DNA from: an uncultured Eubacteriales bacterium
GTDB lineage: Bacteria; Bacillota; Clostridia; Christensenellales; Aristaeellaceae
DNA: 64,000 nt
Assembly: GCA_902799045.1 (NCBI GenBank)
Contig: CADBZH010000008.1
Location: 32,547-96,546, forward strand
Direction: 5' to 3'
A program made the position numbers and the translations under genes. Below, one piece after another: positions 58,372-63,960 of this stretch. Below the pieces are notes generated by a model. It searched no databases, had not been told where the DNA came from, and saw nothing but the letters and a program-made list of their open reading frames with translations. How positions within the stretch are numbered: position 1 is the first letter of the stretch; each line of letters begins with the position of its first letter.

Positions 58372-58808
58372 TGGACGGGGTGCGCAACGACCCGCTGCTG
58401 CTGGAAAACCAGCTCTGCTTTCCGCTGTACGCCTGCGCCCGCGAGGTGATGAAGCGCTACAAGCCCTTCCTGGACGCCATCGACCTGACCTACACCCAGT
58501 ACGTCACGATGATGGTGCTCTGGGAGGTCGGCCAGACCACCTCCAAGGACATCGGCGAACGGCTGCACCTGGATTCCGGCACGCTGACGCCGGTCATCAA
58601 AAAGCTGGAGGAGAAGGGCTTTGTCACCCGCTGCCGCTCCCGCGAGGACGAGCGCAACCTCTGCGTCGCCATCACGGAGGCCGGCCGCGCCCTGAAGGCC
58701 CGCGCCGCGCAGATCCCCGGCCAGGTGGGCCGCTGCCTGTGCCTCTCCCCCGACGAAGCCGGCCAGCTGTACGTCATGCTGTACAAGCTACTGGGCAATT
58801 TGAGCTGA
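58371..58808 (+). CDS. MarR-family regulator, OhrR-like
   Basis: 145 residues. N-terminal ENQLCFPLYACAREV carries the Cys that OhrR/SarZ-type repressors use to sense organic peroxides; the winged helix has TTSKDIGERLHLDSGTLTPVIKKLEEKGFVTR. It probably represses its own operon through the dyad near the promoter and connects the flavodoxin genes to oxidative or thiol stress. Confidence 0.87.
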   Translation: MDGVRNDPLLLENQLCFPLYACAREVMKRYKPFLDAIDLTYTQYVTMMVLWEVGQTTSKDIGERLHLDSGTLTPVIKKLEEKGFVTRCRSREDERNLCVAITEAGRALKARAAQIPGQVGRCLCLSPDEAGQLYVMLYKLLGNLS

Positions 58809-58845: not shown

Positions 58846-58874
58846 TTGACAAAATAGGCTTATTCCTGTATACT
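58846..58874 (+). promoter_or_regulatory. SigmaA promoter of the amino-acid ABC permease operon
   Basis: TTGACA (58846-58851), 17 bp, TATACT (58869-58874). Upstream CCTTATAA is directly repeated (58821 and 58834), a possible regulator site. Confidence 0.88.
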
Positions 58875-58901
58875 CTACCCATCAAAAGGGAGGGCGTATC
58901 C

Positions 58902-58973
58902 ATGAGCAAGCGGCGCGTTCTGTCTGCCATCGGGGCCGCGTGTTGTCGCGGGGCCTGCTTTGCCATGTCCTGA
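58902..58973 (+). CDS. Cys-rich leader peptide 1 (23 residues)
   Basis: ATG at 58902 follows AAAAGGGAGGG; stop TGA at 58971. The peptide begins MSKRRVLSAIGAA and has Cys at positions 14, 15 and 19, encoded by adjacent TGT TGT and a later TGC. A small stem, CCGCG/CGCGG, has the two TGT codons in its loop. A strong hairpin with T-run follows before the permease genes. Cys codons in so short a peptide fit a cysteine-sensing attenuator; a second such peptide precedes the binding-protein gene of the same transporter. Confidence 0.75.
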   Translation: MSKRRVLSAIGAACCRGACFAMS

Positions 58974-58996
58974 CGCCGCCCGTTTCTATCCAACCC

Positions 58997-59026
58997 AAAC
59001 AGCGGCCCGGGCGGGCCGCTGTTTTT
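58997..59026 (+). terminator. Attenuator hairpin upstream of the permease genes
   Basis: AAACAGCGGCCCG (58997-59009) pairs with CGGGCCGCTGTTT (59012-59024) and ends in TTTTT. GGGCCGC inside the leader ORF (58933-58939) can pair with GCGGCCC of the left arm, giving a possible alternative fold. Confidence 0.82.
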
Positions 59027-59061
59027 GCATTCGCCAACCAGGCCAGGAAGGGACTGATCCC

Positions 59062-59727
59062 ATGGACCTCGACTTCATCCAACGCTTCGCGCCGATGTAT
59101 GCCCGGGCGGCGGGGCTGACGCTGCGCATCGGGCTGATCGGCATCGCCCTGTCGCTGGCGGTGGGCGTGCTCTGCTGCCTGGCGAGGTACTTCCGGGTGC
59201 CGGGGCTTCGCCAGCTCGCCGCCGCCTATATCGAGCTGGCCCGGAACACGCCGCTGCTGGTGCAGCTATTCTTCCTGTACTTCGGGCTGCCGAAGGTGGG
59301 CGTGAAGCTGAGCGCCGAGGCCTGCGCCATCACGGGGCTGACGTTCCTGGGCGGGGCCTACATGGCCGAGGCCCTGCGCAGCGGCCTGGAGGCGGTGGAT
59401 CGCACCCAGGCGGAATCGGGCCTGTGCATCGGGCTGACGACGCTGCAAAACCTGCGCTTCGTGATCCTGCCCCAGGCGCTGGCGACGGCCATCCCGGCCA
59501 TCGGGGCCAACGCCGTGTTCCTGATCAAGGAGACCAGCGTGTTCAGCGCCGTGGCCCTGGCGGACCTGATGTACGTCGCCAAGGACCTGATCGGCATGTA
59601 CTACAAGACGGACGAGGCGCTTCTGATGCTGACGGCGGCCTACCTGGTGCTGCTGCTGCCGCTCTCCATCGCGTTTTCATGGATCGAAAGGAGGCTGCGC
59701 CATGCAGGATTTGGCGGTGCTGTTTAG
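59062..59727 (+). CDS. Polar amino acid ABC transporter permease 1
   Basis: 222 residues, HisM/ArtM type. Five or so helices; ARNTPLLVQLFFLYFGLPKVG and the EAA loop EALRSGLEAVDRTQAESGLCIGLT are diagnostic. ATG at 59062 follows AGGAAGGGA. Forms a heterodimeric pore with permease 2, whose gene overlaps its end by 26 bases. Cysteine or cystine is the suggested substrate because of the leader peptides and the CjaA-like binding protein. Confidence 0.92.
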   Translation: MDLDFIQRFAPMYARAAGLTLRIGLIGIALSLAVGVLCCLARYFRVPGLRQLAAAYIELARNTPLLVQLFFLYFGLPKVGVKLSAEACAITGLTFLGGAYMAEALRSGLEAVDRTQAESGLCIGLTTLQNLRFVILPQALATAIPAIGANAVFLIKETSVFSAVALADLMYVAKDLIGMYYKTDEALLMLTAAYLVLLLPLSIAFSWIERRLRHAGFGGAV

Positions 59728-60370
59728 GGGCAGCAACCTGGCGCGGCTGCTGGGCGGCCTGGGCGTGACGCTGAAGCTGTCGCTGGTGTCGGTGGCGCTG
59801 TCGGTGGCGCTGGGGCTGGTGGTCGGCGCGCTGATGACGCTGAAAAACCCCGTCGTGCGGGCCTTCTTCCGGCTCTGGCTGGAGACGGTGCGCATCGTGC
59901 CCCAGCTGGTGCTGCTGTTCCTGGTCTACTTCGGCCTGGCGAAGGCCTTCAACCTCCAGATCAGCGGCGAGGCCGCGGCGGTGGCCGTGTTCACGTTCTG
60001 GGGCGCGGGCGAGATGGGCGACCTGGTGCGCGGCGCGATCACGTCCATCCCGGTCCACCAGCGCGAGAGCAGCGCCGCCCTGGGGCTCACCCGGGGCCAG
60101 TGCTGGCGCTTCGTGCTGCTGCCGCAGGCGGCCCGGCGGCTGGTGCCCCAGGCCATCAACCTCGCCACCCGCATGATCAAGACCACCTCGCTGGTGATGC
60201 TGATCGGCGTGGTGGAGGTTCTGAAGGTGGGCAGCCAGATCATCGACGCCGCCCGCTACGACGCGCCCCAGGCCGCCGTCTGGGTCTACGCCGCGGTGTT
60301 CTTCCTCTATTTCCTCGCCTGCTGGCCGATTTCGCTGGTGGCGGGACGGCTGGAGAAGCGGTGGAGCTGA
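59702..60370 (+). CDS. Polar amino acid ABC transporter permease 2
   Basis: 222 residues of the same family: ETVRIVPQLVLLFLVYFGLAKAF and the EAA-type loop GAITSIPVHQRESSAALGLT. The 26-base overlap with permease 1 couples their translation. A family 1 repeat (60438-60569) separates it from the ATPase gene. Confidence 0.92.
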   Translation: MQDLAVLFRGSNLARLLGGLGVTLKLSLVSVALSVALGLVVGALMTLKNPVVRAFFRLWLETVRIVPQLVLLFLVYFGLAKAFNLQISGEAAAVAVFTFWGAGEMGDLVRGAITSIPVHQRESSAALGLTRGQCWRFVLLPQAARRLVPQAINLATRMIKTTSLVMLIGVVEVLKVGSQIIDAARYDAPQAAVWVYAAVFFLYFLACWPISLVAGRLEKRWS

Positions 60371-60437
60371 TTCAGTGAGGCGTTAGTGTGTGGAGTTCAG
60401 GAAGAAATCCTGACGGGTTTCTTTGATTGAACGGGAA

Positions 60438-60569
60438 CCGGATTGCCACGTCGCTTCGCTCCTCGCAATGACGTGGCAGGATACGGCAGACTGCTTTTCT
60501 ATTGCAACGAGTCCCAGTAATTCCAGCGACGTCATTGCGAGGAGGCCACAGGCCGACGTGGCAATCCGG
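60438..60569. repeat. Dispersed repeat family 1, paired copy G
   Basis: CCGGATTGCCACGTCGC...CGCAATGACGTGG and CGACGTCATTGCGAGG...CGACGTGGCAATCC arms. It occupies most of the 268 bases between the permease and ATPase genes of one transporter. Confidence 0.8.
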
Positions 60570-60638
60570 TTCCCGGGCATTCTATAGCTCCACACTCCAC
60601 TCTCCTCACTGCACACTCAAAAGAACGGAGCGATCCAT

Positions 60639-61400
60639 ATGAGCAACCAACCAATCCTACAGGTGAACCATCTCAGCAAGAATTTCGACGGCAACGGCGT
60701 GTTGAAGGACGTGACGTTTTCGCTGAACGAGGGCGAGGTCATCGTGGTGGTGGGCCCCAGCGGCTGCGGCAAGAGCACGCTGCTGCGGTGCGTGAACGGC
60801 CTGGAGCGGCCGGACAGCGGCGAGATCCTGCTGGACGGCGCGCGCATCGACGACGCCGCGGACCTGGTGCGCGTGCGGCGACAGGTGGGCATGGTGTTCC
60901 AGAGCTACGACCTGTTCCCCCACATGGACGTGCTGGCGAACCTGACCCTCGGGCCGGTGAAGGCCCTGAAGCGCCCGCGGGCGGAGGTGGAGGCCGAGGC
61001 GGAGCGGGCGCTGGCGCGTGTGGACCTGGCCGACAAGCTGCACGCCCTGCCCCGCCAGCTCTCCGGCGGGCAGAAGCAGCGCGTGGCGCTGGTGCGGGCC
61101 ATGCTGATGCGCCCGCGGCTTTTGCTGCTGGACGAGATCACCGCCGCGCTGGACCCGGAGATGGTGCGCGAGGTGCTGAACGTGGTGCTGGACCTGGCCC
61201 GGGACGGCATGACCATGCTGATCGTCACCCACGAGATGCGCTTTGCCGAGGCCGTGGCGGACCGCGTGCTGTTCCTGGAGGGCGGCAGCGTGCTGGAATC
61301 CGCCCCTCCGAAGGCATTCTTCCACCACCCCCAGACCGACCGCGCCCGGCGGTTTTTGGATACGTTCGAATTCGACGCGGTGAAACAGAGAGTGGAGTGA
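60639..61400 (+). CDS. Polar amino acid ABC transporter ATP-binding protein
   Basis: 253 residues, GlnQ/HisP type. Walker A VVGPSGCGKSTLLRCVNGLE, Q-loop MVFQSYDLFPHM, signature RQLSGGQKQRVALVRAM, Walker B LLLLDEITAALD (Ile where Pro is usual), and switch His in LIVTHEMRFAEAVAD. Energises the two permeases just upstream. Confidence 0.94.
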   Translation: MSNQPILQVNHLSKNFDGNGVLKDVTFSLNEGEVIVVVGPSGCGKSTLLRCVNGLERPDSGEILLDGARIDDAADLVRVRRQVGMVFQSYDLFPHMDVLANLTLGPVKALKRPRAEVEAEAERALARVDLADKLHALPRQLSGGQKQRVALVRAMLMRPRLLLLDEITAALDPEMVREVLNVVLDLARDGMTMLIVTHEMRFAEAVADRVLFLEGGSVLESAPPKAFFHHPQTDRARRFLDTFEFDAVKQRVE

Positions 61401-61430
61401 GGCGTGTGGAGTTATAGAGTGCCCGGGAAC

Positions 61431-61468
61431 CGGATTGCCACGTCGCTTCGCTCCTCGCAATGACGTGG
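61431..61468 (-). repeat. Dispersed repeat family 1, single copy H
   Basis: CGGATTGCCACGTCGCTTCG...CGCAATGACGTGG; a half-element between the ATPase and binding-protein genes. The remainder of 61469-61579 shows no gene. Confidence 0.8.
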
Positions 61469-61579
61469 CGGGAAAGCAAAAATCGTTTCTATAGAAATGA
61501 AGCGCAAATCCCTTTTGAACGTCACTCTATAACTCCACCCTCCACCCTTCGCCCTCATTGTTAAGTTCCTGCGAACCTA

Positions 61580-61608
61580 TTGACAAGCCGACCGCCGCGC
61601 ATTATAAT
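61580..61608 (+). promoter_or_regulatory. SigmaA promoter of leader 2 / binding-protein gene
   Basis: TTGACA (61580-61585), 17 bp, TATAAT (61603-61608): consensus strength. A small hairpin CTACAG-AAA-CTGTAG (61620-61634) lies at the predicted 5' end of the RNA. Confidence 0.92.
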
Positions 61609-61652
61609 GTCGGCAATTCCTACAGAAACTGTAGTGAAAGGAGGGCGACCCG

Positions 61653-61730
61653 ATGAAGCGGAGTATTCGCGTTCAGAGCCTGTGTTGTATGTGCCGACGG
61701 CGTCGCCCGATGCCCTGCCGGTACTGTTGA
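61653..61730 (+). CDS. Cys-rich leader peptide 2 (25 residues)
   Basis: ATG at 61653 follows AAAGGAGGG; stop TGA at 61728. It begins MKRSIRVQSL, has Cys at positions 11, 12, 14, 22 and 25, and is otherwise strongly basic with four consecutive Arg. The first two Cys are adjacent TGT codons exactly as in leader 1. A long hairpin lies between it and the binding-protein gene. Interpreted as a cysteine-responsive leader. Confidence 0.78.
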   Translation: MKRSIRVQSLCCMCRRRRPMPCRYC

Positions 61731-61749
61731 CGTGTTCCGAGGGAACCCG

Positions 61750-61811
61750 ATATATACAGGCGGAGCGGAATGGACGACGCGCGTTCATTTCGCTCCGCCT
61801 GTTTATATATA
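61750..61811 (+). terminator. Attenuator hairpin upstream of the binding-protein gene
   Basis: CAGGCGGAGCG (61757-61767) pairs with CGCTCCGCCTG (61791-61801), extended by AT-rich arms (ATATATA with TTTATATAT). The T-tract is interrupted by A, so termination may be partial. It lies 20 bases after the leader stop codon. Confidence 0.7.
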
Positions 61812-61841
61812 TAAAGACGACACATCGAAGGAGAGATCATC

Positions 61842-62660
61842 ATGAAGAAACTGTTTGCGCTGATTCTGGTTCTGGCCATTGCCCTGATTCCCACGGCCCT
61901 TGCCGACGCCAAGGCCCGCACCCTGGACGAGATCAAGGAGAGCGGCACGCTGACCATCGGCGTGTTCAGCGACAAGAAGCCCTTTGGCTATGTGGACGAG
62001 ACCGGCGAATACCAGGGCTACGACGTTTACTTTGCCCGCCGCCTGGCCCAGGACCTGGGCGTGGCGCTGGAACTGGTGAGCGTGGACGCGCCGAACCGCG
62101 TGGAATACCTGACCAGCGCCAAGGTGGACATCATCCTGGCCAACTTCACCGTCACCCCGGAGCGCGCCGAGGTCGTGGACTTCGCCCTGCCCTACATGAA
62201 GGTGGCCCTGGGCGTGGTCAGCCCGGACGACGCGCTGATCACCGACATTGAAGGCCTGCGGGGCAAGACCCTGATCGTCTCCAAGGGCACCACCGCCGAG
62301 ACCTGGTTCACCGCCAACGAGCCGGACGTGAACCTGCTCAAGTTCGACACCTACACCGAGACCTTCAACGCCCTGCTGGACGGCCGCGGCGACGCCCTGT
62401 CCACCGACAACACCGAGGTGCTGGCCTGGGCCATCGAGAACCCCGGCTTCACCGTGGGCATCGAGAGCCTGGGCAGCCTGGACACCATCGCCCCCGCCGT
62501 GCAGAAGGGCAACGACACCGTCCTGGCCTTCATCAACGAGGAGATCGAGGCCCTCGCCGCCGAAAACTTCTTCCACGCCGACTATGACGCCACCCTCAAG
62601 GACGTCTACGGCGACGCCGTCGACCCCGACAACCTGGTCGTCGAGGGCGGCGTGATCTAA
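61842..62660 (+). CDS. Polar amino acid ABC transporter substrate-binding protein (CjaA/Peb1-like)
   Basis: 272 residues with signal peptide MKKLFALILVLAIALIPTALA. Class 3 solute-binding fold: TIGVFSDKKPFGYVDETGEYQGYDVYFARRLA, VDIILANFTVTPERAEVVDFALPYM and KTLIVSKGTTAETWF, closest in style to CjaA/Peb1-type proteins; CjaA binds cysteine. AAGGAG precedes the ATG. It has its own promoter and leader although it belongs functionally with the permease/ATPase genes upstream. Confidence 0.92.
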   Translation: MKKLFALILVLAIALIPTALADAKARTLDEIKESGTLTIGVFSDKKPFGYVDETGEYQGYDVYFARRLAQDLGVALELVSVDAPNRVEYLTSAKVDIILANFTVTPERAEVVDFALPYMKVALGVVSPDDALITDIEGLRGKTLIVSKGTTAETWFTANEPDVNLLKFDTYTETFNALLDGRGDALSTDNTEVLAWAIENPGFTVGIESLGSLDTIAPAVQKGNDTVLAFINEEIEALAAENFFHADYDATLKDVYGDAVDPDNLVVEGGVI

Positions 62661-62701
62661 GCGCAGGGCGCTTAACCCCAATAGCTACCGCCTTACTGAA
62701 G

Positions 62702-62740
62702 CAGCCCCCATGCGCCACTGATTCCAGCGCATGGGGGCTG
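62702..62740 (+). terminator. Hairpin terminator after the binding-protein gene, unit 1 of a hairpin array
   Basis: CAGCCCCCATGCGC (62702-62715) pairs with GCGCATGGGGGCTG (62727-62740), followed by TGTTTGCG. The loop CACTGATTCCA is repeated in two further hairpins downstream. Confidence 0.7.
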
Positions 62741-62744
62741 TGTT

Positions 62745-63060
62745 TGCGGAAGGCAGAGGGAACGGATTCCAACATCGCTGCCGTGCTGAGCGCGGGGCGC
62801 TCGACCCCGTTCGCTGCCGCGCGGAGCATGGGATGCTCCATCCCTCTCGCTGCCGCGCTCCTGCACCAAACCCCATGCGCCACTGATTCCAGCGCATGGG
62901 GTTTGCGTTCGCGGGGCGTCACCGCCCCCCGAGTGCAGCGCGCTCCATCCCTCTCGCTGCCGCGCGGAGCATGGGATGCTCCATCCCTCTCGCTGCCGCG
63001 CTCCTGAACCAAACCCCATGCGCCACTGATTCCAGCGCATGGGGTTTGCGTTCGCGGGGC
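62745..63060. repeat. Tandem hairpin repeat array
   Basis: Two further hairpins with arms CAAACCCCATGCGC/GCGCATGGGGTTTG and the same 11-base loop lie at 62867-62905 and 63010-63048. Between them CCATCCCTCTCGCTGCCGCG recurs about three times (near 62838, 62947 and 62981). The unit resembles duplicated terminator plus spacer. No conserved ORF; gap 62661-63272 otherwise holds repeat copy I and the comEB promoter. Confidence 0.75.
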
Positions 63061-63090
63061 ATCCGCCGCTCCTCCAGAATAATTATCGAA

Positions 63091-63129
63091 CCACGTCATT
63101 GCGAGGAGCGAAGCGACGTGGCAATCCGG
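63091..63129 (+). repeat. Dispersed repeat family 1, single copy I
   Basis: CCACGTCATTGCGAGGAGCG continuing into AAGCGACGTGGCAATCCGG, a short form with palindromic ends CCACGTC/GACGTGG. Confidence 0.85.
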
Positions 63130-63209
63130 GGCCCCCTTTTTTGCAGGGGCGGCATCTCGTGCGCGGTGCGCGCGCGCGATTCCGGTCTGCGCCGCCCGCC
63201 CGAATCCAT

Positions 63210-63728: not shown

Positions 63729-63800
63729 GGAGTTATAGAATGCCTGGGAGCCGGAATCGCAGGGACTCGTTCCAATAGAAAAGCAGTCTGCATATCGTAC

Positions 63801-63839
63801 CACGTCATTGCGAGGAGCGAAGCGACGTGGCAATCCGGT
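63801..63839 (+). repeat. Dispersed repeat family 1, single copy J
   Basis: Matches copy I: CACGTCATTGCGAGGAGCGA and AGCGACGTGGCAATCCGG. The rest of 63729-64000 has no gene apart from the promoter below. Confidence 0.85.
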
Positions 63840-63960
63840 TCTCCTTTAATTGAACAAATCCCGAATGGATTTGCACCACAACTCCTCGCTCCACACTTTA
63901 TACTAGTGTCTGCTTCCAAGGCAAAATACACTGTAATAACAGGGCATCCAGCCAGAAATG

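Follow-up and report, generated by a model that had tools for sequence, protein, structure and literature searches.

Two predicted cysteine-sensing leaders appear to govern the two parts of one amino acid importer in an uncultured Clostridia bacterium

The transporter locus and its two leaders

The 3′ part of a 64,000-nucleotide (nt) stretch of DNA from an uncultured Eubacteriales bacterium (contig CADBZH010000008.1, assembly GCA_902799045.1; the whole stretch is called the window) contains, in order, TSCPD, flavodoxin-like, and OhrR/MarR-type genes, followed by permease 1, permease 2, the ATPase, and the solute-binding protein of an ATP-binding cassette (ABC) transporter (Table 1). Leader element 1 follows the OhrR/MarR-type gene and precedes permease 1; leader element 2 lies between the ATPase gene and the binding-protein gene. 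The initial annotation placed them before the two halves of one transporter, which is true in the sense that leader 1 precedes the genes for the permeases and the ATPase and leader 2 precedes that for the binding protein. It described each element as a short open reading frame (ORF) with a promoter, a Shine-Dalgarno (SD) sequence, and an adjacent pair of Cys codons, followed by a hairpin, and all of these components were confirmed at both leaders.

Besides its TGT TGT pair, leader peptide 1 (MSKRRVLSAIGAACCRGACFAMS) has one other Cys codon and leader peptide 2 (MKRSIRVQSLCCMCRRRRPMPCRYC) has three. Relative to an assumed Cys background of 1.3%, such contents have probabilities of 0.003 (3 Cys in 23 codons) and 1.6e-5 (5 Cys in 25 codons), respectively, and the strongest argument against a chance origin is that the leaders are conserved in relatives. 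The SDs (AGGGAGGG in leader 1 and AAAGGAGGG in leader 2) are situated about 7 nt ahead of the ATG, and the −10 boxes are 27 nt (leader 1) and 44 nt (leader 2) ahead of it. The stem of terminator 2 is followed by TTTATATATA; terminator 1 was picked up by a dedicated hairpin script and is not listed by the simple terminator scan. Between positions 58700 and 62800, there are 3 promoter-like sites, compared with a mean of 0.7 in shuffled sequences. Neither leader peptide matched any NCBIfam or Pfam model, and Rfam models had no match across the window.

Table 1. Features of the transporter locus, in positions of the window
Feature	Position	Strand	Basis or detail
Promoter 1, TTGACA-17-TATACT	58846..58874	+	11/12 consensus positions
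Leader 1 segment 1: SD and start region, complementary to segment 2	58887..58917	+	Duplex of -33.0 kcal/mol
Leader peptide 1, 23 amino acids, Cys-Cys at codons 14-15	58902..58973	+	ORF and conservation
Leader 1 segment 2	58950..58982	+	58976-58982 can pair with 59008-59014 (proposed antiterminator)
Intrinsic terminator 1	58998..59026	+	Hairpin 58998-59023, then T's
ABC permease 1 (amino acid family)	59062..59727	+	Protein-family matches
ABC permease 2	59702..60370	+	Protein-family matches
ABC ATPase	60639..61400	+	Top NCBIfam model TcyN, score under cut-off
Promoter 2, TTGACA-17-TATAAT	61580..61608	+	12/12 consensus positions
Leader 2 segment 1: SD GGAGGGCGAC	61640..61649	+	61643-61649 complementary to 61702-61708
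Leader peptide 2, 25 amino acids, Cys-Cys at codons 11-12, 5 Cys in total	61653..61730	+	ORF and conservation
Local hairpin within leader 2, just past the Cys codons; possible competitor of the antiterminator	61691..61724	+	Minimum-energy fold, single sequence
Leader 2 segment 2, proposed antiterminator strand	61700..61719	+	Pairs with 61759-61780; core 61700-61709 with 61771-61780
Terminator 2	61757..61812	+	Stem 61757-61801 and T-rich interrupted tail; 5′ arm and loop form segment 3
Family 3 solute-binding protein, CjaA-like	61842..62660	+	1xt8 match, E value 5.9e-84

Conservation of the leaders and the putative cysteine signal

The near sample comprised 60 genomes, that of the window plus 59 relatives (genomes and loci are denoted by G and L numbers), from which the DNA upstream of 19 binding-protein and 20 permease-1 orthologues was compared. 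The binding-protein orthologues are 74 to 100% identical; 18 of them, the window's own included, belong to its genus and one (G033) to another, and a fragment in G023 was left out. A Cys-rich ORF with an SD and a Cys-Cys pair is present upstream of every binding-protein orthologue (19/19; typical core, MCCMCRxRRPMPCR), and in G018 it is displaced upstream by about 250 nt relative to its close relatives, reflecting an insertion or a misassembly. A Cys leader (typical core, CC...FAM) is likewise present upstream of 16/20 permease-1 orthologues and was not found upstream of permease 1 in G022, G023, G027, and G033. A similar scan upstream of 21 nonorthologous binding-protein or permease genes returned a single locus, with TTG-start ORFs only. 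Because Cys is a selection criterion of the leader scan, the fair measure is whether and where a leader occurs rather than how much Cys it has. The initial annotation had named loss of the Cys codons or leader frames in relatives as one result that would count against it, and by this measure the leaders are kept.

At locus L037, where leader 1 is absent, the gene before permease 1 ends, by eye, like an O-acetylhomoserine sulfhydrylase, which suggests a sulfur-metabolism context. Among the relatives of leader 1, the frame shifts after the Cys codons in L040, and the stop codon is lost in L035 and L039. Because the DNA nevertheless remains similar by eye in these three cases, it seems to be the RNA, not the peptide, that is conserved past the Cys codons of leader 1.

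The wider sample consisted of the best 80 of at least 593 stretches from at least 390 relatives, mostly metagenome-assembled Clostridia with 13 isolate genomes, and 8 of the 80 repeat genomes of the genus. Of these 80, 20 were judged to have leader 2, namely, all 8 genus repeats and 12 of the 72 others (e.g., MKRQMMMCCCMCGSLRPSRRELCLR); L127 has a plausible thirteenth case outside the genus (MTREWLMMCSCTARLSSTMGF), though it was dropped by eye. No convincing leader 2 was seen in the Lachnospiraceae, Streptococcus, Treponema, and Pectinatus loci among the 80. Of 70 loci with at least 150 nt of DNA upstream of permease 1, 22 had a Cys leader there; 63 of the 70 belong to other genera, and 16 of these 63 have one, among them Peptoniphilus (L138), a Faecalibacterium metagenome-assembled genome (MAG; L146), and Herbinix MAGs (L079 and L104). 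Of the 15 distant leaders analyzed further, 11 have a run of CCC or longer. Across the sample, the operon-head leader has a patchy distribution, and, among these 80 stretches, the second leader before the binding protein was confined to the genus of the window and nearer relatives. Candidates dropped by eye were L122, L127, L129, L131, L132, L138, L141, and L142 in the leader-2 scan; L081, L091, L097, L119, and L144 in the permease-1 scan; L158 in the cysK scan; and L186 and L229 in the cysS/cysE scan.

Other elements occur around the binding-protein gene in these relatives. Outside the genus, 9 of the 12 loci with leader 2 (L077, L078, L081, L082, L083, L085, L086, L093, and L096) have another small ORF after the leader-2 terminator and before the binding-protein gene. 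It has an SD and carries an A(T/K/R)DRC motif (e.g., MFHISRATDRCFSI), and is possibly a second, translational Cys element. Genus loci L013, L014, L016, and L017 have a different small ORF in this position, and in Pectinatus frisingensis an S-adenosylmethionine riboswitch (RF00162; L090:5312-5410) lies downstream of the binding-protein orthologue.

Two further lines of comparison point to cysteine as the signal. The solved structures closest to the binding protein are 1xt8 (Table 1) and 2yjp (E value, 3.7e-79), which we take to be cysteine-binding proteins; the similarity extends over the whole domain and bears out the description of this protein as CjaA-like. In addition, Cys leaders precede cysK in the genus. 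The start was located by motif in 24 of 30 cysK-family loci (that of L173 is probably wrong, L150 has only 112 nt of upstream DNA, and L171 of the window's genome was unplaced), and 7 of the 24 have a Cys leader (e.g., ...DRCCCCAHSYEISWD or ...ARCCCRACFFC). A hairpin lies behind each, and their sequences are unrelated to leaders 1 and 2. Together with leader conservation, these comparisons support the cysteine-responsive attenuation suggested in the initial annotation. Five of the seven genomes with a cysK leader (G003, G004, G006, G009, and G013, at loci L160, L164, L159, L152, and L176, respectively) yielded no close orthologue of the binding protein in the search of the near sample (best E values, 5e-14 to 4e-32), and leader use thus seems to differ between genomes with and without the window's importer.

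Promoters, terminators, and competing pairings

Promoters and terminators were assessed in 69 leaders (31 leader-2, 16 genus leader-1, 15 distant permease-1, and 7 cysK leaders). Among the permease-1 leaders, that of L087 was taken to begin at an internal ATG for the hairpin analysis, from which the L083 leader, nearly identical to that of L077, was excluded. A promoter with at least 10 of 12 consensus positions precedes the leader in 31/31 leader-2 (1.8% in shuffled sequences), 16/16 genus leader-1 (0.6%), 13/15 distant (6%), and 7/7 cysK (1.4%) cases. Hairpins of leader 2 were taken as the best per element among the 31, with at least 10 pairs and no required T tract; the tail of L019 is T-poor, and the hairpin assigned to L076 is poor. 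A loose hairpin rule with a T-rich tail passes all 38 other leaders but also 32 to 91% of shuffled tails, and the claim of termination was therefore based on a strict rule that requires a T-rich tail behind a mismatch-free stem of at least 8 pairs, 3 or more of them G-C. By this rule, a terminator follows 18/31 leader-2 (0.6% in shuffled sequences), 16/16 genus leader-1 (3.7%), 7/15 distant (2.0%), and 6/7 cysK (1.4%) leaders, or 47 of the 69, and several of the failures have longer stems with one or two mismatches. An intrinsic terminator is thus placed between leader and gene, as in an attenuator, and the leader ORFs have SDs and conserved, clustered codons for the amino acid of the pathway, with their translation being predicted.

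The initial annotation left the antiterminator pairing open at both leaders, and one can now be proposed. Segment 2, on the 3′ side of the Cys codons, has rival partners by sequence complementarity: segment 1, the SD and start region of the leader (1:2), and segment 3, the 5′ arm and loop of the terminator (2:3). In leader 2, an alignment of 18 genus sequences made by hand has the ten core pairs of 2:3 in 151 of 171 cells, compared with 35 to 72 when the partner is slid, providing a candidate antiterminator that would exclude the terminator. Two of the pairs show compensating changes across lineages (G-C/A-U/G-U in one and U-A/C-G/U-G in the other). When cognate segments of leader 2 were compared with swapped ones, both 2:3 and the pairing of the SD with segment 2 were favored (P = 5e-5 for each), and wider windows over all 31 sequences gave P values of 0.013 for 2:3 and 0.020 for 1:2.

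Among the 16 genus sequences of leader 1, the 1:2 pairing of the SD/start region with the end of the leader is stronger in cognate than in swapped combinations (P = 0.001). An internal 1:2 hairpin across the Cys codons (GGCGGCG/CGCCGCC) is clear in L036, L038, and L041, with L042 similar, but is interrupted in the window's leader 1, for which reason the SD/start pairing was preferred. In cysK leaders, cognate 2:3 segments are favored (P = 0.002) and 6/7 leaders reach P ≤ 0.05 for 2:3 in single-sequence shuffles, with complementarity kept across several unrelated sequences: AAAUCUCCUG with CAGGAGAUUU in L152, UCUCCUG with CAGGAGA in L153 and L154, and UGCGGAA with UUCCGCA in L176. Distant leaders show both signals (P = 0.0004 for 1:2 and 0.0008 for 2:3), with the caveat that the genomes swapped differ in base composition. 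Across these sets, the 2:3 pairing appears well supported for leader 2 and cysK only.

Duplex energies, which are not kinetic simulations and assume ribosome footprint sizes, are consistent with a dependence on ribosome position. The predicted antiterminator of leader 2 has −28.6 to −31.9 kcal/mol with a ribosome stalled at the Cys codons and −17.9 kcal/mol with one at the stop codon, and the corresponding values for leader 1 are −19.9 and −8.5 kcal/mol. Moving the ribosome from the Cys codons to the stop weakens the computed antiterminator by more than 3 kcal/mol in 16/16 leader-1, 19/31 leader-2, 7/15 distant, and 7/7 cysK leaders.

Several results weigh against a switch of this kind or against cysteine as its signal. 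Column shuffles of the leader-2 alignment already average 144.7 of 171 (1 of 2,000 reaches 151), and the counted pairs were chosen from the same 18 sequences in a hand alignment with one gap set for one variant, which favors them over the slid versions. Cognate leader-2 segments beat the row median in just 19/31 (2:3) and 23/31 (SD) sequences, and in wider windows restricted to the genus the P values are 0.09 for 2:3 and 0.68 for 1:2. Single-sequence shuffles reached P ≤ 0.05 for 2:3 in 3/15 distant leaders, being weak for leader 2 (5/31) and null for leader 1 (0/16). Complementarity for 2:3 exists in leader 1 with no covariation signal among the 16 genus sequences (P = 0.36), its SD pairing shows no signal in a narrow SD window (mean z, −0.13), and 1:2 shows none in cysK leaders (P = 0.44). 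The 4 terminator-like sites of the simple scan are not clearly above the 2.6 in shuffled sequences, and the T tract of terminator 2 is interrupted. At −39.4 kcal/mol, terminator 2 is also more stable than its own antiterminator, such that the switch would have to be kinetic and decided by the order of synthesis. Finally, Cys leaders were found at 0/27 cysS and 0/26 cysE loci of the genus, where cysE starts were often uncertain and several ORFs taken as cysE are doubtful; both genes were rejected as further targets.

A small hairpin (CTACAG-AAA-CTGTAG; 61620-61634) lies between the promoter and the SD of leader 2 in the window. Hairpins in this position with stems of at least 6 bp occur in 8/31 leader-2 (6% in shuffled sequences), 11/15 distant (14%), 5/16 leader-1, and 1/7 cysK leaders, and the stretch searched can include the promoter. 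Elsewhere at the locus, a repetitive extragenic palindrome (REP)-like sequence (CCACGTCATTGCGAGGAGCGAAGCGACGTGGCAATCCG) is present in both orientations in the gaps between permease 2 and the ATPase gene (60425-60481) and between the ATPase gene and leader 2 (61417-61473), with two further copies at 63084-63143 and 63793-63852. On the 3′ side of the binding-protein gene (62670-63057), the hairpin CCCCATGCGCCACTGATTCCAGCGCATGGGG occurs three times inside 80-nt repeats.

A predicted cysteine attenuator, its alternatives, and its relatives

Considered together, the sequence comparisons make it highly probable that both leaders act as ribosome-mediated attenuators that sense cysteine and control transcription of an L-cysteine ABC importer. 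When Cys-tRNA is scarce, a ribosome would stall at the Cys-Cys pair with segment 2 just past its leading edge, blocking 1:2; 2:3 would then form, and the polymerase would continue into the gene. When cysteine is plentiful, a ribosome reaching the stop codon would cover or pass segment 2, allowing 3:4 to terminate transcription, after which 1:2 may sequester segment 2 and close the SD of the leader. The gut bacterium thereby appears to read its cysteine supply twice, with each leader switching on one part of the same importer at shortage.

Control that is mainly translational or Rho dependent, as discussed for the Cys leaders of mycobacteria, with hairpins that are not the switch, is unlikely. 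The 1:2 pairing does extend over the SD and start codon of the leader, 2:3 is unsupported for leader 1, and Actinobacterial Cys leaders are reported without conserved terminators (PMC1262725), but strict terminators are far more frequent than in shuffled sequences in all four leader sets and the 2:3 alternative is present for leader 2 and cysK. It is very unlikely that leader 2 senses arginine, or slow translation in general, by way of the four Arg codons after its Cys codons. These codons count in favor of such a signal and against cysteine (RRRR at codons 15 to 18 in the window), as does the rank of Arg as the second most common residue over the 69 leaders (13.3%). The Arg run, however, is not kept in relatives (CRQRRP, CRGRRP, CGSLRPS, CSSVRLS, and CKKRPS), unlike the Cys cluster, for which the scan selects; the Arg and Pro codons overlap RNA segment 2; and Cys leaders precede cysK as well as the gene of a CjaA-like protein. 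It is scarcely credible that the ORFs arose by chance in the DNA separating a promoter from an ordinary terminator, or that they encode functional Cys-rich peptides. In favor, leader 1 on its own has just 3 Cys; against, leaders occur at 19/19 and 16/20 orthologues versus 1/21 controls, the terminators separate the promoter from its expected target gene, and the C-terminal frame of leader 1 is not kept.

In trp- and his-type attenuators, mutually exclusive 1:2, 2:3, and 3:4 pairings are governed by ribosome position. The cysteine attenuators proposed here would share this logic and differ in their cysteine codons and in having the SD/start region of the leader as segment 1. Attenuation of amino acid genes in Firmicutes is usually ascribed to T-boxes, and Rfam T-box models had no match in the window, 15 transporter loci, or 20 cysK loci. 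As described by its authors, a histidine leader peptide before hisS* and hisZ in bacilli was, to their knowledge, the first regular leader peptide in Firmicutes (PMC2965389); the present leaders resemble it as regular amino acid leader peptides replacing a T-box and differ from it in codons and genes.

In Actinobacteria, small ORFs containing Cys-codon runs are described ahead of cysteine genes, before cys operons with no conserved terminators found (PMC1262725) and in mycobacteria as polycysteine leaderless small ORFs reported to be functional (Canestrari 2020, as cited in PMC9031893, PMC9094748, and PMC13236596). Relative to those descriptions, the leaders examined here have SDs, so that neither has a leaderless start of the mycobacterial type, and differ in their terminator hairpins, their occurrence in Clostridia, and their presence twice at one transporter locus. 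The uORFC-8-2 motif before cysS in Rhodobacterales, with a Cys-Cys upstream ORF and a U-run terminator stem, is predicted to act by ribosome-mediated attenuation (PMC8632094). The likeness lies in this stem and in the tandem Cys codons (usually 14-15 there, as in leader 1); the phylum and the genes differ, with a transporter here and no such leader at cysS in the genus. A literature search, mostly at the title and abstract level and with most subscription papers and all bioRxiv preprints outside its scope, recognized no cysteine leader in Clostridia. Because Cys leaders are described in Actinobacteria and Rhodobacterales and none was recognized for Clostridia, the type of switch is known and its use here looks new. 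Two of its traits are less usual, namely, the double use at one transporter locus and the SD/start region as a competing strand.

For Clostridia as a whole, we see about an even chance of a widespread, repeatedly re-evolved cysteine attenuator for import and cysK, in which one segment is contested by the SD/start region and the terminator arm and which, in the window's family, gained a second copy under a promoter of its own before the binding protein, setting the subunit ratio of the importer separately from one cysteine signal. Two separate copies would allow the supply of the permeases and ATPase and that of the binding protein to be set independently from one cysteine signal. Conserved Cys leaders ahead of importer genes and cysK would define a cysteine-sensing regulon recognizable from sequence in uncultured gut bacteria and would mark these transporters as cysteine importers, and two attenuators at one transporter locus would make it possible to ask, in a natural setting, why the gene of a binding protein is regulated separately from those of its translocator (compare PMC9045158).

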